IMG/VR virus record: IMGVR_UViG_3300014492_000010
Span: 1-44,894 of that record
Reading direction: 5' to 3' (one strand)
Length of the DNA: 44,894 nucleotides
From: a virus
Shown in pieces: positions 13,224 through 44,834 of the stretch. The position numbers and the translations under genes are program-made. The notes below the pieces were generated by a model. That model saw nothing but the letters and a program-made list of their open reading frames with translations. It was not told where the DNA came from and did not search any database. The first letter of the stretch is position 1. Every line of letters begins with the position of its first letter.

Positions 13224-14177
13224 TTACGGAGCGTTCGTACCCCAAGTACCAAGCCAATGCGTAGCGCCCACTGCAAAACGGGTGAACGTCATCATCTTAA
13301 CGCTGCGGGTATCAAAATCATCATCAAAATCCGTATCCAATGCCTTGCGGCGAAGGAACTTTAACTGATGCCCCTCTTTCTCCGTAACGGCAAACCAAGC
13401 ACCCTGAGAGGTAAAGAAATTAACAACCAGATAGGTCAAATCCTCACCTAGCAATGCGTTAATTTCGTTATCTGCCGTGTATGGTTTACCAGGAGAGCCG
13501 AGCAACTCACGAGCGATAAACAACAGTTCCGGCGGAATCAGCAACTTCTTCGGCTTTACCACAATAGGCAAGCCCTGCGAGTCGATCATACGCTGAAACT
13601 GGTTGCTCATAAGCTGGAGTGCCGAGAAGCTCAAATCCATATCCGTCGCGGGGCGATTGGGATATGTACCGGCGCTTGAAATAACATTCGACACACCCGG
13701 CCCAACATTTGTAGCGGCGCTTCCACCGAGAAGCGGGTGTGCATTATTAAACAGGCTTACACCATCCGTACTGATAGTAGTAGTGAAACCCTGATTAAAC
13801 ACATTCCATGCAACCATTTCTTCAGTAAAACGCCCAGAACGTGCAAGAGCCTTGGGCGCCTGTTTGATAATACCATATTGGTCATCATCAATCAGTTCCC
13901 AAGATGCACGGCAAGCAAGTGCATAAGATAGTGGAATGTAACGCTTCGTTCCACCGGGGATAAGGTTCGTATATGCAACAGCTCCCGCTTCAGTCTTCTC
14001 AGGCATAGGCGGAGTTCCTGCATACTGTACCTCATCTTCAAATGCCTTTGTAGTGTTTTCAATATTGAACACTTTATCATACTGCTGGTCGCGCTGAGCA
14101 GTGTCCAAGAATTCGACAAAATTGGCCTTTACGCCCGGAGCAAGTAGCTGTGCGTATTGGCCTCTCACCATCGTCAT
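13224..14177 (-). CDS. Major capsid protein, Mu gpT-like
   Basis: 317 aa. The segment DGVSLFNNAHPLLGG (about residues 140-155) is the hallmark 'DG..LF...HP' turn of the Mu gpT type of HK97-fold capsid proteins. The N-terminal arm and the later ELLFIARELLGSPGKPY segment also fit. Length is right for this group. It is preceded by two head genes and a scaffold-like gene and followed by a strong terminator, as is usual for the most expressed virion gene. The ribosome site is AGGAG, eight bases before the ATG. Most certain of the head genes apart from portal and terminase. Confidence 0.85.
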   Translation of the reverse strand: MTMVRGQYAQLLAPGVKANFVEFLDTAQRDQQYDKVFNIENTTKAFEDEVQYAGTPPMPEKTEAGAVAYTNLIPGGTKRYIPLSYALACRASWELIDDDQYGIIKQAPKALARSGRFTEEMVAWNVFNQGFTTTISTDGVSLFNNAHPLLGGSAATNVGPGVSNVISSAGTYPNRPATDMDLSFSALQLMSNQFQRMIDSQGLPIVVKPKKLLIPPELLFIARELLGSPGKPYTADNEINALLGEDLTYLVVNFFTSQGAWFAVTEKEGHQLKFLRRKALDTDFDDDFDTRSVKMMTFTRFAVGATHWLGTWGTNAP

Positions 14178-16356: not shown

Positions 16357-16722
16357 TTAATACTTATCCCAGTTTGGTTCTTGCCTTTTTGCTTTTTCCA
16401 GCCGCAATTTACGCTTCTGTAGGTTATTGATTAACGTCGGGATAAGCAGGAAATCTTTTACTTCTTCCAAGCGTCCCCTAAGTTTATCACTAAAGTCTAC
16501 TCCATTTGTACTGTAATTCGAGAGTAAACTCTTAGACAACTCCGCCTCGTGATTCTGGTAAAACTCCGTTAGCGCCTTGCCCGCTTGCGACTGGAGGAAC
16601 GCTAGGATTGCTTCCCTGTTGGCGTATATCGAACGATGAAATGCTGTTTTCTCCAGGCTGTCCATGAGCTGTTGCTCCTGCTTCAGCAGCGGCCCCGTTA
16701 GAATTTCCGTTTCCTTGTCCAT
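16357..16722 (-). CDS. Helical protein overlapping the portal C-terminus (121 aa)
   Basis: A perfect AAAGGAG lies seven bases before the ATG at 16722, although that point is 191 bases inside the portal gene in a different frame. An internal ATG at 16665 with AGGAG upstream is an alternative start. The protein is helical and charged (LRGRLEEVKDFLLIPTLINN, then QKRKLRLEKAKRQ). Either start leaves a long dual-coding stretch. It is a small head-assembly candidate; family unknown. Confidence 0.65.
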   Translation of the reverse strand: MDKETEILTGPLLKQEQQLMDSLEKTAFHRSIYANREAILAFLQSQAGKALTEFYQNHEAELSKSLLSNYSTNGVDFSDKLRGRLEEVKDFLLIPTLINNLQKRKLRLEKAKRQEPNWDKY

Positions 16723-18529
16723 TTGCTTGCTCCTTTAGTTGTTTAATAATCGCCGGCATTGGAAGCAACCGACTTACATCATCGTGTCCGAAGTTCTTAA
16801 AGATTCTCCGCATAAGTGCATCGGACGCAGTTACTACATTGACTAAATATTCCTTCATTTCCGGTGGTGCCATTGCAAGATTTTGTAAAATCCCCGCAAT
16901 ACCCTCATAATGCTGCTTGGCAATATTCACAAGCATGATATCATTCTGCTTCTCAAGTTCACGGTTCACCGAGGCAGTCGCTGCTCGTACTGGAAGTGTA
17001 AGTTTTCCATCTGCGTACAATTTCAAACCACGCTCAATGTGTTCTGCGTCTTTGCCGAATCCCCGCAAACTGTCTCCGACCCCAAAATAAGAATACTGCC
17101 GCAAACACTTGCGGCCAATTTCGATGTGGGCTGCACGCATATCAGTAGTTCGTATATTAGTTCGTCTGTTTCCAGCCTGCATAACGGCAAAAGTTCCCAT
17201 CGCAGAATAAACTCCCCGCTTGGGGTTAGTAATACCCGACCCCGACCCACTGATGCCATTGTCCACCCCAGTCCGTGCTTTGACAATATTAAACATCTGA
17301 TTCTCGCGGTCAACGCCCGTATTATTCTGCCTTCCAAGTTGGATAATATCCATACTATCCTTCTTAAAGGGGAATACAGATAACGGATAAATTGAAAACT
17401 GGCTATCAGCAAGAGAATCTGGATCAACACGAATCGCATTTACGTTTGCAAGCGTGTTATTATCCGCGCTACGATTATGTTCAGCGCTGATTTCAGCCTG
17501 TGCGTGCTCTAGCATTTCGCACCAGCCATAACCATACATCCCTCGGTCATCATAACCAAGGCGACACAGCACAAACTGTTCTTCATTATCCGGCATTGGA
17601 TTAAATATAGCCCGAAGCGAAGTCTCAGAACGCTTGTGGTATGTCTCGATGATACGAAACTTCATGAACTTTCCATGCACAAAGTACCAGTAAGGATAAT
17701 GGCACTCGTACAGATCCCATTCCTCTGTAACTGGATCATAGCCTTTACTGGAAATCCCCGCATCCATTTCTTTCGAGGTTTCATTTTGGTCAGGCCCACC
17801 ACGGTCAGGAGAAATTAAAATAGACTCTACCTTTGCCTTATCGTAAATTCCCCGGTGCATACGTTCCTCAAGCTCATGGCGTTTCAGCGTAATCACATGA
17901 GCCTTGAACGGAGCGGTTTCCAGCTTCGTTGCATTGGGTGTAATCAGAAATTTATCAAACGGAATGGACTCAGGACGCGGCCCAGCGTAACGCTGGTATT
18001 CACGCACGTCCATACTTGCACCACTTCCCTGCCCAAGAACATCTGCTTCGATATCTACTTGATATGAAGTCTTAACCGCGTTCATGCCAAACTTAATAGC
18101 ATTCCCAAAAGCGATGGATTCTACACGGTATAGGTCTAGTTCCTGTTGCTCAAGACCTTTTAGTGAAAGCATTTCCTCAAGCGCATTACGCGCTTCTTCT
18201 GCCTTGTCTGCCGCTTCGTAATCGCCTACCAAAGACAAAGGCCAGAGCGGAGCAACCTCATAGATTGAACCAAGAATCGCTGCCAGCAATGTATCACAAT
18301 GCTGTGCAATTACCTGAATCTCGAGATTGCTCGCCCCAGGCCATGGAAAGGACTTCTTTTCTTCCTTTGGTTTGCCCTCATATAACTTCCGCCATTTATC
18401 ATACTTCTCAGTACGCAGAACCTTAAGGCTCGAAATGAGATTGTCTAAATGCGCCTTCACATAAGCTAAGCGCTTTTTAGTCTCTTCCGGCCCCATCTTT
18501 ACTAACGTAGGTTCATAAATGGCTGGCAT
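16532..18529 (-). CDS. Portal protein (665 aa)
   Basis: The segment KKSFPWPGASNLEIQVI (about residues 58-74) is a well-known portal signature of short-tailed and related phages ('fPWpGASN'). It is followed by repeated mixed beta/helix segments and a long helix-rich C-terminal half containing AEISAEHNRSADNN. The last ~65 residues are Gly/Ser/Asn/Pro-rich, and this tail is encoded by the same DNA as the start of the next gene. It lies downstream of the terminase after one inserted secreted-protein gene, the usual late order. Confidence 0.88.
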   Translation of the reverse strand: MPAIYEPTLVKMGPEETKKRLAYVKAHLDNLISSLKVLRTEKYDKWRKLYEGKPKEEKKSFPWPGASNLEIQVIAQHCDTLLAAILGSIYEVAPLWPLSLVGDYEAADKAEEARNALEEMLSLKGLEQQELDLYRVESIAFGNAIKFGMNAVKTSYQVDIEADVLGQGSGASMDVREYQRYAGPRPESIPFDKFLITPNATKLETAPFKAHVITLKRHELEERMHRGIYDKAKVESILISPDRGGPDQNETSKEMDAGISSKGYDPVTEEWDLYECHYPYWYFVHGKFMKFRIIETYHKRSETSLRAIFNPMPDNEEQFVLCRLGYDDRGMYGYGWCEMLEHAQAEISAEHNRSADNNTLANVNAIRVDPDSLADSQFSIYPLSVFPFKKDSMDIIQLGRQNNTGVDRENQMFNIVKARTGVDNGISGSGSGITNPKRGVYSAMGTFAVMQAGNRRTNIRTTDMRAAHIEIGRKCLRQYSYFGVGDSLRGFGKDAEHIERGLKLYADGKLTLPVRAATASVNRELEKQNDIMLVNIAKQHYEGIAGILQNLAMAPPEMKEYLVNVVTASDALMRRIFKNFGHDDVSRLLPMPAIIKQLKEQANGQGNGNSNGAAAEAGATAHGQPGENSISSFDIRQQGSNPSVPPVASGQGANGVLPESRGGVV

Positions 18530-19358: not shown

Positions 19359-19561
19359 TACATTCCCCTATCCAACATCGTTTCCGACGACTTACTAAAC
19401 TTTGGCATTGTATTCGCCATGTTATGCTCACGACAAAATTCAGCCCACAACGTGTCTAAAACAAAAGAAGCGCGTGACGTAAATTGACTTACACGCCAAA
19501 AGATGCCAAGTAAAATAACTAGCGACACTCCTTGAATCACTATCACATATGTGATTTCCAT
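19358..19561 (-). CDS. Small single-span membrane protein (67 aa)
   Basis: It starts in TAATG overlap with the terminase stop and ends in TAATG overlap with the next gene. Residues 4-22 (TYVIVIQGVSLVILLGIFW) form one membrane helix, followed by a polar tail with Arg, Lys, Glu and one Cys. N-out or N-in topology cannot be told. As part of the terminase-membrane-membrane chain it may belong to lysis, for example as antiholin or inner spanin subunit. No signature is decisive. Confidence 0.55.
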   Translation of the reverse strand: MEITYVIVIQGVSLVILLGIFWRVSQFTSRASFVLDTLWAEFCREHNMANTMPKFSKSSETMLDRGM

Positions 19562-21261
19562 TAATACCCCGCGACTCCAACTGATTCAACATGATTAAGG
19601 GCTTGCCGCTTTTCCATCCACATTTTTACTTCCTGCTTCGGTGTAACTCCAACACTGTCGAATACCTGTGGTGCATAAGCAATTGTATCAAGAATGTCCA
19701 GTGTTTTACCGTTCGGGAAACCTTTGTATTCCAAAAGAAAATCAGTAAACTTTCGTTGTGCAAAGAATCTATTTTCAGCGAACCAGGGATTCAGTGCTTC
19801 AATTCTGCGTTTCTTCGCATTAGGACTGTAATCTATTTTAAGCTCGCGTACTGTAAGTCTCCGGCTTTCAATGCGATTGCGATACTCAAGATAAAACTTA
19901 AGAATTCGCTGAGCAGCAATAGTTTCCAGCCAAAATTCAGAGAGTCTCCAATACTGGGCCATCTCATAGATCTTAGCCACGAGCCGTTCATAATTACACG
20001 ACTCTGCCCATGAATCCAATAAATACATTCTCTCATCCGTTTTTCCCTCTACTTTGCTTTTATAGTAGCCAATTACTGAAAGCGAATGCCTGCAACGTCC
20101 TTTATTCTCAGCATGGTTCGGGTCACAAATCATAACGATTCGTAGATTGGCAGGCATGATATCCTTCAACGCCTCACCTTCAACTACTTCATGTTCAATC
20201 ACCATACGCCGGTCAGTAGGACTCACAGTGCGTGGTTTGTAATAACGAAGCCAATTGTGGTCGAAGATTGCAGTGCCAGGTGCGATGGGGTCATTCAGAT
20301 ATTGGCAAGAAAAGTAGTACAAGCCGAGACGTATTGCAAGTTTCTCAAGCTTCTCTTTAGTGTATTCTGCCGGGAAAATAGGCATCCCGGCAGGATGTAA
20401 TTCACATTTATTATCGTTACAGCCACCAAGTGCAGAGTGAGTCTCGAAGTTAAACCACGGCTCGTTGTCTTTTATCCACTGATTCAGGTCTTTCTGTGAC
20501 CAGCGATTACCGACTACGAGTTCGTCATTTTCCTCGTTTTGCAGTGAAGGGTCAGAATCCCACGCGCCTACCATGTGTTGATGATAGGAGATGATATCAA
20601 GCATCACTGTATCTGAATCAATCGCATCACGTCCAACGAGATCATCTTCTACTACCCGATTGTAGTGTCGGCTCTGCAATGCACCACCAACACCAAGGAA
20701 ATCAAACGTACCTTCACCATCAGGGGAGTTCTTGGTACGCTTCTGCGTCCGACACTTATCACTCCAAACGCAAGATGAGTCTGGTATAATCTCAGGAAAC
20801 ATCTCACGAAAGAAATCGTTGTTCTCGTAATGATGCCCGATCCTACGCCCTAGTTTGATTGCATTTCCTTCCATACTAGAAACAAGAAGTGTGCGCGTAT
20901 CTTGGTTGTGTGCGTAGCGCATCCAGCGAATCCACTCGTCCCCATAACCCAGGGTACGCATGTACGCCTCATCCCTGGTTGTGAATGGAAGTGCCCACCA
21001 CATAGGCGTACCTTCGGAGAATATCGTGCTCTTGAAATGGTCACGAGGATATTCCTTAACCTCTTTCAAGTGCATCTTCTCTACGGAATCGGCCATATGT
21101 TTATGCAAATTGTCTTGTAGTCGGTGGCGACGTAATCCTATTTTTATGAAGTAATAATTGGAGCCAAGGCAATTCAACCGATGCGCGAACAAACGAGTCG
21201 CAGGGTCTTGTATTGCCGAGGCGTTGATTAGCCGCCACCGATTTTGAAACTCAAGTTGCAT
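19561..21261 (-). CDS. terL: Terminase large subunit (566 aa)
   Basis: This is the packaging ATPase/nuclease. A variant Walker A (EYPRDHFKST), a Walker B VVEDD near the residues preceding LVG, and the nuclease acidic residues in VMICDPNH and LDILDTIAY are visible in the right order. The start at 21261 was chosen because the upstream gene stops there in a TAATG overlap; an in-frame extension upstream is unneeded. Length fits large terminases. It heads the late unit after the TerS-like gene and two small ORFs. Confidence 0.87.
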   Translation of the reverse strand: MQLEFQNRWRLINASAIQDPATRLFAHRLNCLGSNYYFIKIGLRRHRLQDNLHKHMADSVEKMHLKEVKEYPRDHFKSTIFSEGTPMWWALPFTTRDEAYMRTLGYGDEWIRWMRYAHNQDTRTLLVSSMEGNAIKLGRRIGHHYENNDFFREMFPEIIPDSSCVWSDKCRTQKRTKNSPDGEGTFDFLGVGGALQSRHYNRVVEDDLVGRDAIDSDTVMLDIISYHQHMVGAWDSDPSLQNEENDELVVGNRWSQKDLNQWIKDNEPWFNFETHSALGGCNDNKCELHPAGMPIFPAEYTKEKLEKLAIRLGLYYFSCQYLNDPIAPGTAIFDHNWLRYYKPRTVSPTDRRMVIEHEVVEGEALKDIMPANLRIVMICDPNHAENKGRCRHSLSVIGYYKSKVEGKTDERMYLLDSWAESCNYERLVAKIYEMAQYWRLSEFWLETIAAQRILKFYLEYRNRIESRRLTVRELKIDYSPNAKKRRIEALNPWFAENRFFAQRKFTDFLLEYKGFPNGKTLDILDTIAYAPQVFDSVGVTPKQEVKMWMEKRQALNHVESVGVAGY

Positions 21262-21551
21262 TACACGTCCTGCGGATCGAACAGTTCGGGAGTGTGCAGA
21301 CGTTCCAACTTGGTCGTACACTGTGGACACAGAAGCTTCGGTGCTTCATCATTTACTTGTGTGTGATACACAGCATGAACACCGCAATGCGCCGGCTTTA
21401 CCACACCACTAGGCGTAGTTTCGATATTTGCACAATGCGAATAAGCCCCACGGTGAGGCTGCACGACAAGTTTTGTCTCTGTTACCGTTGTTTTCACTTC
21501 CGTAACCTGCTGCGGTTTGTTATTTTTGCTGGGAAAACTCATCACAGTCAT
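21261..21551 (-). CDS. Small Cys-containing protein upstream of terminase (96 aa)
   Basis: It starts at 21551 behind GAGG (six bases) and ends in TAATG overlap with the large terminase. The N-terminal 35 residues are Lys/Thr/Val-rich. The rest carries a Cys/His set (SHCANIE, HCGVHAVYH, LLCPQCTTK) that could hold a metal ion in a small finger. No family recognised. Tight coupling suggests a packaging-related accessory, but this is inferred from context only. Confidence 0.55.
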   Translation of the reverse strand: MTVMSFPSKNNKPQQVTEVKTTVTETKLVVQPHRGAYSHCANIETTPSGVVKPAHCGVHAVYHTQVNDEAPKLLCPQCTTKLERLHTPELFDPQDV

Positions 21552-34958: not shown

Positions 34959-35179
34959 AGGGCGTGAAAGTAGCATTGACAAGTGAGCAAAGTGCTCATC
35001 TAGATGCCATTAAAGACAGATTTATTGCTGAAGTTGACGCTAAATATCGCAAAGGCGTTCAAGAACATGGCGGTAATCTTTGGCTTAAGTCAGCTTTGCT
35101 TGATGAAGCTTTGGATGAGGTAGTAGACCTCTATGTGTATCTTATCACGCTCAAAAGTCAGATTGCTAAACTACACTAA
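34934..35179 (+). CDS. Small NTP-pyrophosphohydrolase-fold-like protein (81 aa)
   Basis: The pattern KYRKGVQEHGGNLWLKSALL followed by DEALDEVVDLYVYLITL resembles short phage proteins of the all-alpha NTP pyrophosphatase (MazG/dUTPase-2) style, with the acidic helix EALDEVVD. It has about half the usual length, so activity is uncertain. ACAGGAG precedes the ATG, and its stop overlaps the next start (TAATG). Confidence 0.55.
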   Translation: MGGKNVQLKGVKVALTSEQSAHLDAIKDRFIAEVDAKYRKGVQEHGGNLWLKSALLDEALDEVVDLYVYLITLKSQIAKLH

Positions 35180-36312
35180 TGCCTAATATAATTGCACATT
35201 CTGGCTCACCAAACAATCCAATTTGGGTTGTTGTTGACCAGCCATACGAACGGGACGCGGAGAAGGGGATAGTCTTTTCCGCTCCCTATGGTTGGGTATT
35301 TCAGAAGATGTGGGAAGAAGCGGGGCTTGGCGCGTATCAGCCATTTATAATGTCCCTACGTCCTGATCTTGAGAACCCCGGCGATGCGGTAACTGCGCTA
35401 AGAAATTTTCAGTCCTATGTAGGAACATATTGCCCACCATTTATACTACCGCTTGGAAAAATAGCAACCGCTATTCTATGCCCAGAAACGATACTACGGC
35501 GTAAAGGAAAAAACAATGCGAATCAAGTTGCCGAAGCAAGTCTTGATAAATATTCTAGTTCGTTGCTTGTGTCGCCTTTTATCCAGCATGGACATTATGC
35601 AATACCGCAACTCGCTCCCGATGGTATCGTGGCAAACTGGGGATATCGTAACATCGGTATTTTTATCGACCTTGGACGGGTACGTGATGAATATAATTAT
35701 TACAAAACCAATGGAAAGCTTCAACCACCGACGGACAGAGAGCTAGTATTAGAACCTTCTTACTATGACCTCATGGATATTTTACAACGCTTTAGGAATC
35801 CCAAGTTAGGCTTTCTATCAGCGGATATTGAAACGATACGAGCGCCTAAGAGTAGTGTGACGTTTAAGAATCATCCAGGTTTCCCTTACACTTTATCTCT
35901 TGCGGACAGCCCTAATCTTGGTGTCAGCTTTAGCTATTGGGATTATGAACCTTGGCAGAGTGTTAATATCTGGCGAGAGCTTAATCATCTCATGTCGAAT
36001 GTGCCACAGATTGGGCAGAACTATTTCAGTTTTGATACGCATTTCCTTGAGGCGATGGGTTTTACCATCTGTCTTGATAAATGTCAGGACACACTCATCA
36101 GGCACCATCTTCTATGGCCCGAACTAGAGCATAAACTTCAATTTCAGACCAAACAATACACGAGGCAGAAGTTTTACAAAGACGAAGGTAAGGGCTGGAC
36201 ACCAAAGAATAAGAAGCAGCTCTTTCACTATAACGCACTTGACAGCACAGTGACGTTTGAAATCTTCCTCGCTCAGGAAGAGGAATTTAATGATAGGCCA
36301 CACTTACGTTAA
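35179..36312 (+). CDS. UDG-like plus 3'-5' exonuclease part of the DNA polymerase (377 aa)
   Basis: Residues 1-130 look like a uracil-DNA-glycosylase-superfamily domain (VVDQPYERDAEKG, SAPYGWVFQKMW and LPLGKIATAIL match its loop-helix pattern). Such a domain is known in phage SPO1-type polymerases. Residues ~200-377 are a DnaQ-type exonuclease: LSADIET (DxE), IGQNYFSFDTHFL, and HYNALDSTVTFE (YxxxD-type motif III). The polymerase domain is not here but 183 bases on. The enzyme is thus split between proofreading and synthesis parts. Confidence 0.75.
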   Translation: MPNIIAHSGSPNNPIWVVVDQPYERDAEKGIVFSAPYGWVFQKMWEEAGLGAYQPFIMSLRPDLENPGDAVTALRNFQSYVGTYCPPFILPLGKIATAILCPETILRRKGKNNANQVAEASLDKYSSSLLVSPFIQHGHYAIPQLAPDGIVANWGYRNIGIFIDLGRVRDEYNYYKTNGKLQPPTDRELVLEPSYYDLMDILQRFRNPKLGFLSADIETIRAPKSSVTFKNHPGFPYTLSLADSPNLGVSFSYWDYEPWQSVNIWRELNHLMSNVPQIGQNYFSFDTHFLEAMGFTICLDKCQDTLIRHHLLWPELEHKLQFQTKQYTRQKFYKDEGKGWTPKNKKQLFHYNALDSTVTFEIFLAQEEEFNDRPHLR

Positions 36313-36339: not shown

Positions 36340-36510
36340 ATGGAATATTGCCACGCTACAATTGTAATTAAACCTGGGGTAGAAACTTACTGTATGCGTG
36401 ATAGAGGGCATGAGAAGTGGGATGAAGTTGATGGACATTCTATGCTAACTGAAGAACAAATTATAGCTAAGAGACTGCGTGAAACACAAACCAAATGCCC
36501 GATCAAGTAA
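36340..36510 (+). CDS. Small gene between the two polymerase genes (56 aa)
   Basis: ATG at 36340 behind AAGGGGGG. It encodes a polar protein with YCHATIV, CMRDRGHEKW and a final Cys; the His/Cys set could hold metal. It ends 16 bases inside the polymerase gene. No homing-endonuclease motif is complete. It is either a real small gene or the remnant of an insertion that split the polymerase. Confidence 0.55.
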   Translation: MEYCHATIVIKPGVETYCMRDRGHEKWDEVDGHSMLTEEQIIAKRLRETQTKCPIK

Positions 36511-37919
36511 ACTCAACCTACGAACACGCTTTAGCGTGTGCCTATCACCGCATTGATAATCGCGGGATGCTGTTCGATGAGGAACAGATGGCGGACTTAC
36601 GATACAAGATACAGGCACATAATATGGAATTGCTTGATGAACTATCTTGTCTTTGGGGTCTTAAGGTGTATATCGGTGCAGAGAATCGCCCAGCTAAAGA
36701 TACATCCGCGTTAAACATCAACGCGAGTAAACAGTTACTTGAGTTCCTGAAGACAAATGGATATAAGATTCCGCTTGTACGCCGAAAAAACAAGGAAACG
36801 AAAGAGATTACATACGAGGAATCCGTCGAAGAACTTATTCTACGAAAAATCTTCGCAGAAACTAACGATCAATGTATTAAACGAATTCTTGATGTCAGGG
36901 AGTATAATACACTTCAGATTCGTTATGTAAACTCGCGTAGATATAATGGTCAATTTTTCTCCAACTATGGTGTCGCTTCTACCGTTACTGGCAGGCGTAG
37001 CTCACGAAAGCATATCTTTAATTACGGCGGAAATGCACAAACTTTTCCTAAACATTATGACTTGTCTAAAAGTTTTAGGCGTGGTATTATTGCAAGACCT
37101 GGGTGTTTCTTCTTCATCGTTGACCAAATGAGTGCAGAGGATTGGCCCGTGTCAGCGCTTGCTGGAAATACTCACGCGCTTGGGGAGTTGCAACAAAGGC
37201 AAGATAGGCACTCAAAACTTGCTGCATTTATCTTCAACTTATCCTTAGCGCAAGTGACTAAAGATGGTATCGAACGCTATCTTGGAAAGAAAACTCGGCA
37301 CGCGAATAACTATGGTATGCGCGGACAAGCCATGTCCGATTCCCTTGCGCGTGAAAACTTTGCATATAGTAAAGCACAATGCGATGCTCTACTCAAAAAG
37401 GTAAATGAATATGACCCAAGTATATCCGGTGTATTTCACACTTACGTTAGAGAACAAGTGTTTAGGACGTTTATGTTACATAACCCGTTTGGAAGAGAGC
37501 GGCACTTTCACGGCTTGCGACAGGGAGAAGCAAATTTCGAAATCTTTAACGAAGCTTATGCTTACATCCCTCAAAGCACAGTCGGAGACAACACTGGATT
37601 CGCCGTGTTACATCTCGATGGGGTTAATGATTACATTGTCAACGAGTGTCACGATTCAATTAACCAAGAATGCCCGAACAACGAACAGACTGTTCGTCGG
37701 GTGTACACAGAGACTCAGCGAGCGTTTGATAGGAGAATTACTTTCCACAACGGAATTTCTGTGCAAATCCCCATCGAAGCAGAATTCGGCTTCAACCTTG
37801 AAGATACAGTAAAGGTAAAAGATTTTACAGAAGAGGCTTGTGTGAAGATGTGGAAAGAGTTGAATGAAAAATATATAGACACTCACAAGAAGTGTCTAGC
37901 AAAACTTAACTATATCTAA
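36495..37919 (+). CDS. polA: Family A DNA polymerase, synthesis part (474 aa)
   Basis: Motif A is VDQMSAEDW (Asp210; the E of the usual 'DxSxIE' pattern retained), the O-helix is KKTRHANNYGMRG (about 265-277), and motif C is ECHDSINQE (Asp386, HDS instead of HDE, as in other phage enzymes). The palm and fingers are all present, and the region before residue 150 is the thumb. It lacks any exonuclease domain; that is encoded upstream. The two proteins probably assemble. Split family A polymerases are known from some podoviruses. Confidence 0.85.
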   Translation: MPDQVNSTYEHALACAYHRIDNRGMLFDEEQMADLRYKIQAHNMELLDELSCLWGLKVYIGAENRPAKDTSALNINASKQLLEFLKTNGYKIPLVRRKNKETKEITYEESVEELILRKIFAETNDQCIKRILDVREYNTLQIRYVNSRRYNGQFFSNYGVASTVTGRRSSRKHIFNYGGNAQTFPKHYDLSKSFRRGIIARPGCFFFIVDQMSAEDWPVSALAGNTHALGELQQRQDRHSKLAAFIFNLSLAQVTKDGIERYLGKKTRHANNYGMRGQAMSDSLARENFAYSKAQCDALLKKVNEYDPSISGVFHTYVREQVFRTFMLHNPFGRERHFHGLRQGEANFEIFNEAYAYIPQSTVGDNTGFAVLHLDGVNDYIVNECHDSINQECPNNEQTVRRVYTETQRAFDRRITFHNGISVQIPIEAEFGFNLEDTVKVKDFTEEACVKMWKELNEKYIDTHKKCLAKLNYI

Positions 37920-37937: not shown

Positions 37938-39161
37938 ATGCCACGAAAGTTAAAAGGTAGTTGGTTACAAAACTATACCACATATACAAAAGAGTGTGAG
38001 GCTCCATTAGCTTATAACTATTGGTGTGGCGTAAGTGTGTTAGGGTCTGCATTGAAGAAAAACGTCTGGATTCAGTACGGATTCTATAAGATTTTTCCTA
38101 ATCAGTATGTTATCCTTGTAGGGCCGCCAGGAGTTGGTAAGGGTGCAAGTATTAATCCCGCAGTTACACTCGCAGAGCAGGCTGATGTAATCAATTATAT
38201 TCCTGACCGCATCACCGCAGAGAAGATTATTGAGAAACTTGCAACCGGGTTTCAGCATATCAGTACGCAAACCACGGGTCTTGGGCCGAATCAAATGTCG
38301 CATAAGATTACAACTGGAGATTCCAGTGCCACGATTATTAGTACGGAACTTCCAGTATTTCTCCAAGCCTCGGAATGGATGCTCCCATTAATGTGTGAGA
38401 TGTGGGATAAAAATGAATTTAGTTACGATACTAAAACTAAGAATACATACGTCGCAAAGGATATATGCGTTTCCTTACTTGGCGGTTGTGTTCCAGATTA
38501 TATCCGTAAACTAAATAGGGATGCGACCGCGGCTATTACTGGAGGCTTTACGTCTCGTTGTTTGTTTATTTTTGCGAGTCAGAAGTCGCAAATGATTCCA
38601 TGGCCTGACAGCCCAATTAAATCTCAACTTGAGGTTGACCTTATCAATGACTTGAAATACATCAACAACACACTTCAAGGCGAGTTTCGTTTTGAACCAT
38701 TAGCAAAGACACTATGGGTGAATAAGTATGATGAGCTTCACAAAGTAGATGAGTTCGCATCAGAAGTTGTGATCGGCTACACAAGTCGTATGAAGTCACA
38801 TATTTTTAAGCTTGCTATGATTATGAGCGCGGCAGAACGTGACGATCTCATCATCACGAAGAATCACTTGTACAATGCAATTGACGTGTGTGAAAAAGTT
38901 GGGGAGACTCTTGATCTGACATTCCGTTCTGTTGGAGAATCACCACTTGCAGCGGCACAGGATAGGGTACTTGCATATATTGAATCTCGTGGTATTACCA
39001 CGTTTCCACAGATACTTCGAGCAAACTATCGGCATGTAACAGACGAACAGCTTAGGCAGATTCTTTATGTCCTACAAGCCGCAGGATTTGTCATTGAAAG
39101 AGCTAAAGGAAACGCGACTGAATATATTAGTACAAATAAACAACGTGGAGGGACTCCATAA
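37938..39161 (+). CDS. Replicative helicase-like P-loop protein, DUF3987-like (407 aa)
   Basis: Residues ~10-55 (YTKECEAPLAYNYWCGVSVL, then ALKKNVWI) and Walker A VGPPGVGKGAS (60-70) match DUF3987/primase-helicase-type phage proteins. The C-terminal ~60 residues (DRVLAYIESRGITTFPQILR) look like a winged helix, usual for such proteins. With no other helicase or primase visible, this is the likely replicative helicase. The stop overlaps the lysin start (TAATG). Confidence 0.7.
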   Translation: MPRKLKGSWLQNYTTYTKECEAPLAYNYWCGVSVLGSALKKNVWIQYGFYKIFPNQYVILVGPPGVGKGASINPAVTLAEQADVINYIPDRITAEKIIEKLATGFQHISTQTTGLGPNQMSHKITTGDSSATIISTELPVFLQASEWMLPLMCEMWDKNEFSYDTKTKNTYVAKDICVSLLGGCVPDYIRKLNRDATAAITGGFTSRCLFIFASQKSQMIPWPDSPIKSQLEVDLINDLKYINNTLQGEFRFEPLAKTLWVNKYDELHKVDEFASEVVIGYTSRMKSHIFKLAMIMSAAERDDLIITKNHLYNAIDVCEKVGETLDLTFRSVGESPLAAAQDRVLAYIESRGITTFPQILRANYRHVTDEQLRQILYVLQAAGFVIERAKGNATEYISTNKQRGGTP

Positions 39162-39574
39162 TGGGGATGAAATTAGTGGATGCAATTGCGAATATAGAAG
39201 GTTTTTATGCGGTTATTCCTTATGGGGGAAAGCCGAATCGCCCGCAGCGGAATAACAATCCGGGTGACCTTGAGTTTCACAGTTGGATGCACCAAAAATA
39301 TGGTGCGTTGTTGGAATCCGGTACACTACAACCACGCTTTGCATATTTTCCATCTGTGAAGATTGGGTTTCAGGCCCTTACAGATATCTTGCAGGAGGAT
39401 TATGCACACCTTTCTATTTACGCGGCGATTAATAAGTATGCGCCGCCTAATGAGAATGACGATACGAATTATGTTACCTATGTGTGTAAGAGAGTTGGTT
39501 GTCTTACATCAGACCTTGTTGGTACAATTTTAGCGCGAGACGCTGCGGCGGAGTTGGAGCAGAATAATGGATAA
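39161..39574 (+). CDS. Endolysin, lytic-transglycosylase-like (137 aa)
   Basis: The N-terminus (AIANIEGFY) carries the catalytic-type Glu13. The segment NRPQRNNNPGDLEFHSWM and, later, FQALTDILQEDYAHLSIYAA, INKYAPPNEN are the standard pattern of small phage muramidase/transglycosylase proteins. There is no signal peptide, so a holin is needed for release. Unusually, the gene is in the early-strand unit, not beside the holin candidates. Confidence 0.75.
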   Translation: MGMKLVDAIANIEGFYAVIPYGGKPNRPQRNNNPGDLEFHSWMHQKYGALLESGTLQPRFAYFPSVKIGFQALTDILQEDYAHLSIYAAINKYAPPNENDDTNYVTYVCKRVGCLTSDLVGTILARDAAAELEQNNG

Positions 39575-40229
39575 CTTGACTGAACCTAGACCAGAACGAG
39601 ATTACACTGAGGAAATTCACGTAGACGAACGTGATGCTGAGTTACTTGCGCCTGAGACAATGCAATCGGAGGTAGTAATTGGTGAGCCTGATAAAGCTCA
39701 GGAAACTCCTAGTAAGAATCGTTATACTATTATCAGGGGTACGGGTGCAGCGCAGCTTGCGCTTGAAGCTATGGGAGATTTACTTATCGTGATAGAGGAT
39801 AAGTTTAAGTCTGGCTTTGAGTGCCCGGTATGTAATGCGGGTGGGGAGTATAATGAGCTTGCGTCTAGCACAAGCGTTAAGACAATGATACCATGCGGCG
39901 ATTGTGCTAGTACAGGAATGTCGCTACTCAACCCGTTAATTAAATGTAAGTCTTGCCAAGGTTCGGGTAGCACTGTATGTCCGTCGTGTGGTGGAACCGG
40001 TGGAACACTCATCACCCCTGAAACTGCTCAACGCCGTCCAACCACAGGCACAGTAATGAGTAGCGGGCCGGAGACTAAATTCTTATTCCCTGGTGACCGT
40101 GTATTGTACTCGCTATTTGCTGGTTCTGCAATTCAGCTTAAACAACGTGCTACTGTTCGTATCATGCACGAACATGAGGTTATGTGTAAGTTACATGGTA
40201 ATCTCAAAGTGGGAGACTATATAAAATAA
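39567..40229 (+). CDS. GroES-like co-chaperonin with a DnaJ-type zinc domain in its mobile loop (220 aa)
   Basis: Residues 1-60 are a charged flexible arm. GDLLIVIEDKFKS (70-82) matches the first GroES strand and loop root. After it come four CxxC motifs (C86/C89, C110/C113, C127/C130, C138/C141); the last two are full CxxCxGxG, as in the DnaJ zinc domain. Directly after is GGTLITPETAQ, equivalent to the GroEL-binding GGIVL tripeptide. Next comes TTGTVMSSGP, then PGDRVLYSLFAGSAI and VRIMHEHEVMCKL, the last strands of GroES. In GroES the mobile loop sits exactly where the zinc domain is inserted. It would cap a chaperonin, or compete with host GroES. Overlap of eight bases with the lysin gene; the stop overlaps the next start. 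Confidence 0.8.
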   Translation: MDNLTEPRPERDYTEEIHVDERDAELLAPETMQSEVVIGEPDKAQETPSKNRYTIIRGTGAAQLALEAMGDLLIVIEDKFKSGFECPVCNAGGEYNELASSTSVKTMIPCGDCASTGMSLLNPLIKCKSCQGSGSTVCPSCGGTGGTLITPETAQRRPTTGTVMSSGPETKFLFPGDRVLYSLFAGSAIQLKQRATVRIMHEHEVMCKLHGNLKVGDYIK

Positions 40230-40570
40230 TGAAGGCCAATGATTACCAGACTCTAGCTTGGGCTACTGCAAAACCGTTTTATAAATCAGATACACAGGGT
40301 GCGCGTAAAGCGAGAGCCTTACAGCTTACTGCGTTCACCCTGGAACTTAGCGGTGCGGCTGAGGAGTTGAGCAATAAGATTAATCGGATGGTGGAGAGCG
40401 GGGAAAATTTTGATGTAGATATACTTTCAGAACAGCTTGGAGATATTCTTTGGTTTGTTGCGGGCTTCGCTACCATGCTTGGTGTTAAGCTGGAGACGCT
40501 ACAGAGTAAAAATATACAAAAGCTCCGAGAAAATTACCCCGGAGCCATTGCAAGTTACAAGCAGTTCTAA
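40229..40570 (+). CDS. MazG-like nucleotide pyrophosphohydrolase (113 aa)
   Basis: Typical all-alpha MazG pattern: LSGAAEELSNKI (ExxE-type motif) followed by EQLGDILWFVAGFATMLGV (ExxGDxxW-like) and a helix with NIQKLRENYP. These enzymes hydrolyse NTPs to NMP and PPi, and phage versions may modify host ppGpp or clean the dNTP pool. It starts in TAATG overlap with the GroES-like gene and is the last gene of the early unit. Confidence 0.75.
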   Translation: MKANDYQTLAWATAKPFYKSDTQGARKARALQLTAFTLELSGAAEELSNKINRMVESGENFDVDILSEQLGDILWFVAGFATMLGVKLETLQSKNIQKLRENYPGAIASYKQF

Positions 40571-41010: not shown

Positions 41011-43209
41011 CTAGTTAATCTGCCAGCAAACTGTGCTGACGTCAGTTGTCACCACCGCATTGGCAGTGGACAGCGCGTGGATCACAAACGACGTTCCCGG
41101 TACGATAGTACCGATGTCGAGACGCGCCCCTAGCACTGAGCCAGCGGCGCCACAACTCGACAACCTATACAGGCAGGTCGAGCTTATAGTGCACGCTGTC
41201 GTATTGCTGACCGTCACCGTACCAGATACGAGCGTGGCTGTTCCCCACGCCTGATTTCCCGGCGTCAAGGCTACTGTGCCGGTAATGTTCGGGAAGTTCC
41301 ATGTCCGCGCCGCCGTCAGCGTGTTGCGCGTGATGTTTCCCGCATAGCTCGCAACGCCGTCGAGCTGGATGGTGGCGCTGGGAACGATGATGCTGCTGCC
41401 ATCAACGGGAAAACGAATGTTGTCCGGCGATCCCCAGCAACCGACGTATGCGAAATTTCCGTTGTTTCCCGCCCCGGCGTAGAGATTGAACCCAAGGTTG
41501 CATCCGTTATAGTACGACCAGTCATGGCCGAAGCGGAAACTGCTGATGATGGACGAAATGGCCGCATTCGGAGCATAGGCGGCGATGATTGGCTGATAGC
41601 TCATCCTCGCAGTGGACGAGTTTACGAACATCGCCGCCGCGTTGTCACCGGATACCTGCGACTGATAGAAGTAGCTCAGAGGGCTTCCACCGTTGTAGTT
41701 GTCATTCCAGTTTCCGTAAATCTGCCATGCCCCAGCCGCTGAATACTGTGCCCAGATCACAGGGTTCCCGCTTGAAGCGTTGAAAGCGTTTCCAGACACG
41801 ACGCCGCCCGTTCCCGCAAGGTACATTCCCTGCGGAACATCGCCAATCCAGTTGCCCGTGATGATTGGCCCAAGAGGTGCCCCACCCTGCGCCGTAATAG
41901 CCGTACCACCATTGTCGTAGATGATGTTTCCGGCGATATGGGCAGCAACACCATTATCCTGTATGCCTTGCCCCGGATTGTTCTGGCAGTTATTGTTCTC
42001 CAGCCAGTGAGAATCAGCTTCGGTGAAGATACAACCACCGACCCAGCCAACCATCGTGTTATCACTGACTTCTTCTTCGTCGGTGAGATTGGCGTCATAA
42101 AAAGACCAGTTTGCGGTGTAATTTCCGTCCAAGTACATGCGCTTAATCGCCGGAGAATGATGCCGATAATCCCCGTGCATATTTGCAGATGTGTTGCCAA
42201 TGACGACGCCGTTACTAGCGCCAGTCCATGTGACGTGTGCGCCGCCGGGAGTACCGGGAGTGTCGTGCGTAGGCCATGGACTGCCGCAGCAATTCCAGTG
42301 AGGCTTCACCAAACCGTCTGTGGTAATCCAGTCATAGTCGTACAGTAAATTTCCGGCACAGGTATAGTTGCCGCTGTGAATATTGATGAGGCCGCCCGGC
42401 GAACCAGTCTGTGAACCCAGCGTGACGATCGCCCATTCCCAGCTTCCCACATTCGTCGCAACGCAGAAGTCTCCCACTGAGGAGTTATAGTAGAGGTCAA
42501 TCTGGCGGATAATTCCGGTACCATCGAGGCGCTCTAGTGCTGCGATATTGCCGCCAACTTGAATCTCTTTTGTAGTGGCATCTGAGACTGTGGTGAATAT
42601 TCCGACGTTCGGCATGCTCGTGCCAATCGGGCCAGGTGAGAGGGGATTAAAAACCTCACTTATCCAACCCAAGCCAGTCCATGTGCGAGTTGTATTTGAG
42701 ATAACATTAAAATAACTACCACCAGGTAATGGGATGGGAGCTACTTCTGTATCATTATATCCATATGCGTTAGAGCCGGCTGAAAATGTAATCGCAGGTG
42801 CGTTGTAATTTACTCCGACAGGCAAGCCATTTGGCACTTGAGTAGGCGTAAAAGTTGTACACGTTACAGAGGCATTAGGACAGGCTGTAAGTACCCAAGT
42901 GCCGCCAGCAGGAACTATCCCATTCCCATTTACACCTGAAGTAGTTGGAGTAAGGCAAACAATAGCGGTACCACTAGAGCTTAAAGCTCCGGTATAGCTC
43001 TGTGGAAATACTGTGCCATTAAAGATATATGGCCCAGGAACTCCATATGGTGGAGTAAACGCCCAAGTATATGCGCCGTTCATAAATACTTGACCATTTG
43101 CATCTGTAATTGTTGCGGTAACATTTACGCACTGACCAAAGCTTATGCTGCTAAAGGCAAGTACAAGTAACAGCAGCAATACATTACATGCGAGAAACTT
43201 TTTCATCAT
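41011..43209 (-). CDS. Secreted beta-helix tailspike-like protein, mosaic (732 aa)
   Basis: The start at 43209 has GGAGAGAG in front; an in-frame extension beyond it would run through the upstream gene. Residues 1-26 are a Sec signal peptide (MMKKFLACNVLLLLLVLAFS, then SISFGQ). Residues ~27-185 are a beta-sandwich-like domain in AT-richer DNA. From ~190 on, DNA becomes clearly GC-rich and the protein turns into repeated short strands with Asn/Gly turns (NHIAG-like repeats, residues ~300-520), as in right-handed beta-helix spikes. The end has a small beta domain with paired Cys. Probably host recognition; an export route is odd for a spike. Confidence 0.7.
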   Translation of the reverse strand: MMKKFLACNVLLLLLVLAFSSISFGQCVNVTATITDANGQVFMNGAYTWAFTPPYGVPGPYIFNGTVFPQSYTGALSSSGTAIVCLTPTTSGVNGNGIVPAGGTWVLTACPNASVTCTTFTPTQVPNGLPVGVNYNAPAITFSAGSNAYGYNDTEVAPIPLPGGSYFNVISNTTRTWTGLGWISEVFNPLSPGPIGTSMPNVGIFTTVSDATTKEIQVGGNIAALERLDGTGIIRQIDLYYNSSVGDFCVATNVGSWEWAIVTLGSQTGSPGGLINIHSGNYTCAGNLLYDYDWITTDGLVKPHWNCCGSPWPTHDTPGTPGGAHVTWTGASNGVVIGNTSANMHGDYRHHSPAIKRMYLDGNYTANWSFYDANLTDEEEVSDNTMVGWVGGCIFTEADSHWLENNNCQNNPGQGIQDNGVAAHIAGNIIYDNGGTAITAQGGAPLGPIITGNWIGDVPQGMYLAGTGGVVSGNAFNASSGNPVIWAQYSAAGAWQIYGNWNDNYNGGSPLSYFYQSQVSGDNAAAMFVNSSTARMSYQPIIAAYAPNAAISSIISSFRFGHDWSYYNGCNLGFNLYAGAGNNGNFAYVGCWGSPDNIRFPVDGSSIIVPSATIQLDGVASYAGNITRNTLTAARTWNFPNITGTVALTPGNQAWGTATLVSGTVTVSNTTACTISSTCLYRLSSCGAAGSVLGARLDIGTIVPGTSFVIHALSTANAVVTTDVSTVCWQIN

Positions 43210-43561
43210 ACTCTCTCCAATCCACTCCAAGTTCAAGGGCAAGTTGACGCTCCGCAATGGTAGCAAGTTGGTGTTGCCGATAATACGGAGCGCGTAAACA
43301 ATCTCCAGGTTCAGCGTGGTTTCCAGCTTTGCGATAGTTCTCAAATTCAATATCAAATGCAGTAACGAGGGCTTCTTGGATTCCAGCGCGCTTACAAGCA
43401 AGCGCCTCGAATTGTTCATGGTATGCGACAAGTGTTTCGTAACGCCAATCAGCCATCGCAGAGACTCGAATTTGTAGGTCACCAAACTCATCAAACCACC
43501 AATCACCAACGGTAACATAGCGTTGTTGATTGTGTGGAATTACTCTCACATAGATATTCAT
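43184..43561 (-). CDS. HExxE-containing conserved phage protein (125 aa)
   Basis: Start at 43561 behind GGAG. The sequence opens with a beta pattern (VIPHNQQRYVTVGDWWFD), then DWRYETLVAYHEQFEALACK with H48-E49-x2-E52, and later TAFDIEFE. This layout recalls a small phage protein family I know only as conserved hypothetical ('DWRYE.LVA.HE..E...C...GI'). HExxE could be a metal site, but two His are expected for a zinc peptidase, so activity is doubtful. It overlaps the spike start by 26 bases. Confidence 0.6.
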   Translation of the reverse strand: MNIYVRVIPHNQQRYVTVGDWWFDEFGDLQIRVSAMADWRYETLVAYHEQFEALACKRAGIQEALVTAFDIEFENYRKAGNHAEPGDCLRAPYYRQHQLATIAERQLALELGVDWREYDEKVSRM

Positions 43562-43571
43562 GCTTACTCCT

Positions 43572-44834
43572 TTACTTAAACCATCCCCAACGTGCAAGTC
43601 CTTCATAGCGTTTCCAAGTACGCCTCGCTAAGTCTTGACGAAATTGCATATCAGGAATCTTTATCTTCTTAATTTTCTCTTTAACCACCGCCCACGCTTC
43701 GTCTGTGGTTCTACCGACACCAATAGGCACAGCAATAAACCCACTTGCACCAGCAGTAACAAGTTCATCGCCTGCCAGCATTGCGTCGTAGAGATAACAA
43801 CCGTGAGATATATCCTCGATATCAATCCCATTTATCGGCACTCCTATGGGATGTTTCCCATGCACTTCTGTTGGGTACGGAGGAATAGAAAGTCTTGTTG
43901 CAGCAGCAAAGGCATTCTCATTCCAGCGCAGCGTTGTTGGAGTTTCACCTGCGGCAATAGCTCGGAAAAATTCACCGAGGTCTGATGTAATCAGCGCACA
44001 CAATGTGGCACTCGCATCATAGCCGAAACGCGGAGTCCATTCAAGTCCGTATAATTTATCCGGCCCTGCAATGACATTCAAGTCAATCATTCCCCGATAC
44101 CCAACATGTTTTAGGAAATCCTTCATCCGCATAAGCCCTTCTTCTATGAGCCGATTCGGCTTATTGTAAATCCAAACAAGGTTTCCAGCGCACCCAGTAT
44201 TAGGCCCTTTGTTACCTTCCATAAACTTCTTTTCTTCCAGTGTCGCGTTCCATAGATAAAAATCTTCGCCATTAAAATAAGCTTCGGTAGAGACTTCGAT
44301 TCCATCTACTACCTCCTGTAATAGAAACGTGGCCCCCTTAGTAGCCTGTCCAAGACGATCAATGTAATCGAGCAGGTCTTGGGAGGAATCTGCAACATAA
44401 GTTGTATTGCAATCCTGCTCCTGCCCGCCATCCGGCTTAAATACGTAGCGTTTCTTATTCGCCTTGATATACTTTTTCGCTTCACCGATTTCGTGGAACA
44501 CTTCGTACGGTGGGACATTGATATCACATTGCTCCATTGACTCAATGCCAAACATCCTATCCTCTTCCACGAGAGAATTAAAATTCCCATCGCCAATAGT
44601 CGGTGTGAGAAGCGCAGACTTCTCCGCAAGTTTAGGCTTACCCGTAAGATCAAAGAGTACCAAATCATAACGTGCAAAATCCGGGCGCTCAAAGATTGGT
44701 TTAGGGGCGAGTCCGTGTAATACATCCATGTAGTCTTTCGACATAAGATAATAGTCCACCTTGTGTCCTTCTTCTTGAAGTCTCAACGTGAACCATGCGC
44801 CGTAGCCGCTGTAACTTACCATCAGTATTTTCAC
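43572..44834 (-). CDS. ATP-grasp ligase, PurD-like (420 aa)
   Basis: GTG start at 44834 behind GGGGCGGG. The Rossmann-like start (KILMVSYSGYGAWFTLRLQE), the ATP-binding KKRYVFKPDGGQEQDC, EVSTEAYFNG, GNKGPNTGCAGNL, and LYGLEWTPRFGYDA correspond to the PurD (GAR synthetase) ATP-grasp motif order. It lacks clear signs of the full PurD substrate site, so the amine or carboxylate substrate is unknown. Its neighbours are a 48-aa small ORF upstream and an HExxE protein downstream. Purine-pathway help or peptide/virion modification are both possible. Confidence 0.75.
   Translation of the reverse strand: MKILMVSYSGYGAWFTLRLQEEGHKVDYYLMSKDYMDVLHGLAPKPIFERPDFARYDLVLFDLTGKPKLAEKSALLTPTIGDGNFNSLVEEDRMFGIESMEQCDINVPPYEVFHEIGEAKKYIKANKKRYVFKPDGGQEQDCNTTYVADSSQDLLDYIDRLGQATKGATFLLQEVVDGIEVSTEAYFNGEDFYLWNATLEEKKFMEGNKGPNTGCAGNLVWIYNKPNRLIEEGLMRMKDFLKHVGYRGMIDLNVIAGPDKLYGLEWTPRFGYDASATLCALITSDLGEFFRAIAAGETPTTLRWNENAFAAATRLSIPPYPTEVHGKHPIGVPINGIDIEDISHGCYLYDAMLAGDELVTAGASGFIAVPIGVGRTTDEAWAVVKEKIKKIKIPDMQFRQDLARRTWKRYEGLARWGWFK

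Follow-up and report, generated by a model that had tools for sequence, protein, structure and literature searches.

What could a zinc domain do inside the very loop by which a GroES-type lid docks on GroEL? The question is raised by a gene in the window, that is, the whole of a virus record from IMG/VR, 44,894 bases long. The sequence-only reading had taken the ORF at 39567-40229 for a GroES-like co-chaperonin with a DnaJ-type zinc domain, marked by four CxxC motifs, inserted in its mobile loop. Pfam agrees with the first part of this claim: Cpn10 matches residues 144-208 of the protein at 4.1e-7 (30.4 bits against a gathering cut-off of 21.1 bits). The DnaJ_CXXCXGXG family matches residues 85-134 at 6.5e-4, which is under its own gathering cut-off, and no J-domain was found in the protein by the same scan. 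The GroES strand that was said to precede the insert is too short to be matched by Pfam, but it is supported by a structure model, which aligns to GroES and T4 gp31 from residues 63-69 onwards.

AlphaFold models were computed from the alignment of the family described below. For the window protein the mean pLDDT is 66, with the blocks covering residues 111-140 at 91-95; residues 63-211 align to GroES chains (Z 9.7) and to T4 gp31 (Z 8.8), and residues 82-149 to BSD2 (6ekb, Z 6.1). The model of a compact relative, L005 (pLDDT 83, pTM 0.66), matches GroES 1p3h with Z 10.9 and gp31 in its complex with GroEL (2cgt) with Z 10.4; its residues 34-88 match BSD2 6ekb with Z 7.7 (55 aligned residues; the BSD2 chain has 62), and the GroES and BSD2 matches cover separate parts of the model. 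When the models are set against GroES and DnaJ-type folds, a GroES fold is thus found on both sides of the zinc motifs, and the fold nearest to the insert is that of a stand-alone chaperone, BSD2. The position proposed for the zinc domain had to be refined: the domain takes the place of the loop's N-terminal half, at about residues 83-144, and the half with the GG pair and the hydrophobic triplet is kept. The triplet itself, TLI, lies just after the insert, as had been claimed for the equivalent of the GroEL-docking residues, and its hydrophobic pattern is kept across the family. The parallel drawn earlier with T4 gp31 gains from the structural matches, from the association with head genes and from the lack of a GroEL gene among those found in these phages; the protein also resembles gp31 in lacking the roof loop, a point that the sequence-only reading did not mention. 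In a viral structure library, plain GroES proteins lead the best 50 matches, and among the named entries there none is recognisable as the zinc-insert form.

Table 1. Positions in the window of the zinc-insert GroES gene, its parts, its two overlapping neighbours and the head genes
Feature	Position	Strand	Basis or remark
Major capsid protein (MCP), Mu gpT-like, 316 aa, proposed client	13224..14177	-	PHROG 371; homologues in named phages that have a plain GroES close by
Portal protein, head module	16532..18529	-	
Terminase large subunit (TerL)	19561..21330	-	Homologue downstream of the zinc-GroES gene in most relatives
Upstream overlapping gene, endolysin/transglycosylase-like	39161..39574	+	PHROG 873, 4e-15
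Zinc-insert GroES gene, 220 aa	39567..40229	+	GroES with DnaJ/BSD2-type zinc domain in mobile loop
N-terminal extension, residues 1-62, acidic, low model confidence	39567..39752	+	Partly conserved with L001 (EEIxVDERDAxxLAPETMQ)
GroES N-terminal strand and mobile-loop start, residues 63-82, last letters ALEAMGDLLIVIEDKFKS	39753..39812	+	Predicted strand 72-77; GroES/gp31 structural alignment from 63-69
Zinc-domain insert, residues 83-143	39813..39995	+	Pfam DnaJ_CXXCXGXG 85-134; BSD2 6ekb over 82-149, Z 6.1
CxxC motif 1, C86 and C89	39822..39833	+	
CxxC motif 2, C110 and C113	39894..39905	+	
CxxC motif 3, C127 and C130	39945..39956	+	
CxxC motif 4, C138 and C141	39978..39989	+	
GroES C-terminal barrel, residues 144-211	39996..40199	+	Pfam Cpn10; profile-profile match to plain GroES, probability 96
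TLI, residues 147-149, after GG; counterpart of the GroES I-V-L GroEL-docking triplet	40005..40013	+	Hydrophobic pattern kept in family
Shortened roof loop PETKFLFP, 8 residues against about 17 in E. coli GroES	40068..40091	+	Family comparison; compare gp31 (PMC6318259)
Downstream overlapping gene, MazG-like pyrophosphatase	40229..40570	+	PHROG 229, 1e-14

The family was built by a search of viral contigs with a DNA pattern (the fourth CxxC with the GroES docking segment after it) and by profile scans, the profiles being made from subsets of the family, as full-family alignments are too diverse. The search for the same fusion in other phages, suggested earlier, was fruitful: the IMG/VR scans gave 37 distinct members, each less than 95% identical to the others, in uncultured viral contigs. 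Since these 37 homologues share both parts and the architecture of the window protein, chance is excluded. Four pattern matches (L003, L012, L013 and L018) turned out on translation to be fortuitous and were discarded. An artefact or a frameshift as the origin of the reading frame is ruled out by the many independent contigs, by purifying selection in the estimable pairs and by the start and stop that overlap the neighbouring genes. Pfam Cpn10 exceeded its gathering cut-off in 27 of the 28 family records, with one match per record. In a more distant set of the lineage, defined by TerL, nine of the ten records longer than 34 kb have a Cpn10 match and the tenth carries a homologue at 64% identity.

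Within the family most mobile loops are about 60-75 residues long, and nearly all roofs have 8 residues. A hydrophobic triplet (TLI, LLI, LIV, ILV and similar) follows GG, or a like pair of small residues, in nearly all members too. Nearly all have exactly 8 cysteines in the stretch from the first GroES strand to a conserved P-T-[TS]-G motif; L004 and L036 have exactly 4 and would thus be of a one-zinc type. In L001, a close relative with 61% identity in the alignment, all eight CxxC cysteines are kept and the remainder of the insert has changed. In the zinc domain of DnaJ, motifs 1 and 4 hold one zinc and motifs 2 and 3 the other. If the same holds here, the pattern in L004, where motifs 2 and 3 were lost together and motifs 1 and 4 kept, is the one to be expected. 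Some members depart from the common plan in other ways. In a distant subgroup (L130, L131, L133 and L135-L137) the outer CxxC pair is kept and the inner pair remodelled, in several cases to CxC and, after it, two cysteines that lie far apart. The insert of L132 (934-1731) is about 114 residues long, and its motifs 2 and 3 are separated by an additional charged linker. In L011 (3124-3768; IMGVR_UViG_3300036846_001153), a record missed by Pfam Cpn10, a second zinc-like insert with two CxxCxGxG motifs lies in frame in the roof loop, besides the one in the mobile loop.

The two parts of the protein do not evolve at the same rate. Among the estimable pairs, dN/dS is about 0.04-0.17 for the GroES core and 0.1-0.45 for the insert, and the dN of the insert exceeds that of the core in all listed pairs but one and is mostly 2-5 times as high; since dS is saturated in many pairs, the direction alone of this difference is safe. 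The comparison suggests an insert whose scaffold is conserved and whose surface changes; its faster evolution fits a changing partner, without saying which. One candidate for this partner is the chaperonin, and here lies the main rival of a role in holding and handing off a client: the zinc domain could be only a host-specific clamp, which binds the outer apical face of a particular host GroEL, lets the phage lid outcompete the host GroES and has no part in binding clients. Such a clamp would account for the place of the domain, in the loop that contacts GroEL and next to the triplet, for a nonsynonymous rate of the kind expected of a surface matched to the host, and for the remodelling or loss of the inner zinc site in some members. 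It accounts less well for a fold that matches client-binding chaperone domains (BSD2, DnaJ), and the plain GroES of phages with a homologous capsid protein does without any insert. On balance we regard the clamp as unlikely, though a serious contender.

Which chaperonin, then, and which client? No Cpn60/GroEL gene was found in the 28 family records, most of which are fragments, so that the partner is probably the host GroEL. As to the client, the surrounding genes point to the head. Within the close group, most members have the zinc-GroES gene upstream of the terminase gene, separated from it by zero to a few small genes; the portal gene comes next and, further on, the gene of the Mu gpT-like capsid protein. 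In the window, in L001 and in the distant group, the gene is found at the end of a polymerase-primase operon, away from the head genes, which counts against the gp31-like reading preferred below. The window gene overlaps the end of the preceding gene with its start and the beginning of the MazG-like gene with its stop, which indicates a tight operon, placed after the DNA polymerase (two ORFs) and a primase-like gene. In named phages whose MCP is homologous (31-34% identity), namely Alcaligenes phage vB_Af_QDWS535, Roseobacter phage CRP-902, Pelagibacter phage HTVC023P and Manatee Spring myovirus ct2os315, a plain GroES is encoded about three genes before the MCP, beside the portal gene where this is annotated; in some of them it lies between the portal and MCP genes. 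The use of a GroES for head assembly therefore seems to be a habit of several phages with such a capsid, and the zinc insert is the mark of one lineage of uncultured phages.

The same synteny could also be read without any GroEL: the GroES fold might have been reused as a head assembly or scaffold protein, its zinc domain acting on capsid subunits in the manner of BSD2. The BSD2-like insert and the strong conservation of the C-terminal part are in keeping with this possibility, as is the place in the head module. We nevertheless consider it improbable: the family has kept the hydrophobic docking triplet after GG, related phages have a plain GroES in the head module, and the loss of the roof parallels gp31.

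We return to a reading that we consider probable: the protein would be a co-chaperonin of the gp31 kind and would cap host GroEL, chiefly for the folding of the capsid protein. The computed features behind this reading are both folds, the position of the insert, the conserved cysteines and triplet, the shortened roof, the absence of any phage GroEL among the genes found and the association with head genes; from these we infer a heptamer, its binding to GroEL, the capsid client, the zinc content and what the zinc domain does. Seven copies would form a GroES-like ring, and the hydrophobic half that the mobile loop retains would dock this ring on host GroEL, so as to close a chamber whose chief use would be the folding of the phage MCP. 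The shorter roof hairpin and the larger mobile loop should alter the height and the opening of this chamber. Size alone gives no reason for a special lid, because a capsid protein of 316 aa would fit the ordinary GroEL-GroES chamber. Each mobile loop would carry a two-zinc domain of the DnaJ/BSD2 type; the ring would consequently display seven of them at the GroEL rim, where their task would probably be to hold capsid subunits that are unfolded or newly released, or else to make further contacts with the apical domains of a particular host GroEL. For the job of the zinc domain we put client contact at somewhat less than an even chance, and docking to GroEL lower, as rather doubtful; an insert of 60 residues beside the triplet could even block docking. 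BSD2 is an assembly chaperone for the large subunit of Rubisco (PMC5818400; PDB 6ekb, 6ekc, 8ilm), and since it is also the nearest fold, the holding and handing off of a client is an attractive idea. Hence our tentative proposal, which we hold with reserve, of a new class of co-chaperonin in which capsid subunits are taken up or passed on by seven BSD2/DnaJ-type domains, one in each GroEL-docking loop. If this were true, a co-chaperonin step and a zinc-chaperone step that are separate for Rubisco in chloroplasts would be fused in one protein.

Nucleic-acid binding is common among cysteine-rich domains, and one might ask whether the zinc domain serves for redox chemistry or for binding nucleic acid, in an otherwise plain co-chaperonin, any effect on folding being indirect. 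Domains with DnaJ-type CxxC motifs are able to show thiol activity (PMC4428491, PMC7865324). The CxxCxGxG spacing and the fold are, however, those of a chaperone zinc domain, and the sequence bears no sign of nucleic-acid binding; this explanation is very improbable.

Comparison with known systems helps to place the family. The mobile loop of T4 gp31 has 22 residues against 16, and gp31, which has no roof loops, is required to fold the capsid protein gp23 (PMC6318259). With it and like phage co-chaperonins of the GroES type (PF00166, phrog_3188) the zinc-GroES proteins share the GroES fold, an enlarged mobile loop and the lack of the roof hairpin; as gp31 has no roof either, this lack is not decisive for GroES membership. 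They share with gp31 also a phage gene for which no phage GroEL was found and a link to capsid genes, but they differ from it by a loop of about 60-75 residues with a zinc domain, instead of 22 (PMC6318259), and by an extra N-terminal extension. The plain GroES of vB_Af_QDWS535, CRP-902, HTVC023P and ct2os315 is likewise phage-encoded in a head module with a homologous MCP, but has about 111-146 aa and no zinc insert. With BSD2 and the cysteine-rich domain of DnaJ (PF00684, PF25436) the insert, which is predicted to bind zinc, has in common four CxxC(xGxG) motifs in most members and a modelled fold that matches BSD2, whereas there is no J-domain, and the zinc domain sits within a GroES loop and not on its own or in an Hsp40. 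An engineered heptamer of human Cpn10 tolerates foreign peptides in its mobile loop (PMC5118791); unlike these man-made scaffolds with short peptides, the insert of zinc-GroES is natural, conserved and a folded domain.

As a docking element the mobile loop of GroES is under strong constraint, and a natural, conserved and folded insert in it offers a direct way to learn how much the loop tolerates. The family also bears on how phages redirect host GroEL to capsid proteins and on whether a lid could choose its own clients. Natural controls are at hand: the one-zinc loops of L004 and L036, the remodelled inner site of the L133 group, the second insert in the roof loop of L011, and the phages with a plain GroES and a homologous capsid protein.

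Outside the family, tblastn with the window protein and with P0002 found no zinc-GroES in 50,697 phage records; with L005 and L133 as queries, the matches read in phage records were plain GroES or a cysteine-rich protein other than GroES. Matches in plasmids covered the GroES part only. A scan of genome contigs, limited to two peptide patterns, gave two matches, neither of them GroES and both in other proteins rich in DnaJ-type zinc motifs. The zinc-insert GroES was thus not found in named phages (50,697 records) or in this pattern-limited scan of sequenced genomes, and is carried by many uncultured phages. Published titles and abstracts, in a search whose scope mostly excluded subscription journals and preprints, describe no zinc insertion in a GroES mobile loop.

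Some minor observations were made along the way. The DNA polymerase of the window is split into two ORFs (35179-36312 and 36495-37919) that match consecutive portions of PHROG 17; a small ORF (36340-36510) lies between the two. The 420-aa protein of 43572-44834, conserved in L001 and without a clear PHROG match, looks ATP-grasp-like by eye. On the minus strand, 41011-43518 encodes an 835-aa tail-like protein with a secretion-signal-like stretch (MKKFLACNVLLLLLVLAFSSISFGQ), and a partly similar protein is encoded downstream of the zinc-GroES gene in several relatives. Finally, a 636 kb phage (L142, LR756504.1) encodes a protein in which about twenty DnaJ-like CxxC repeats form an array.
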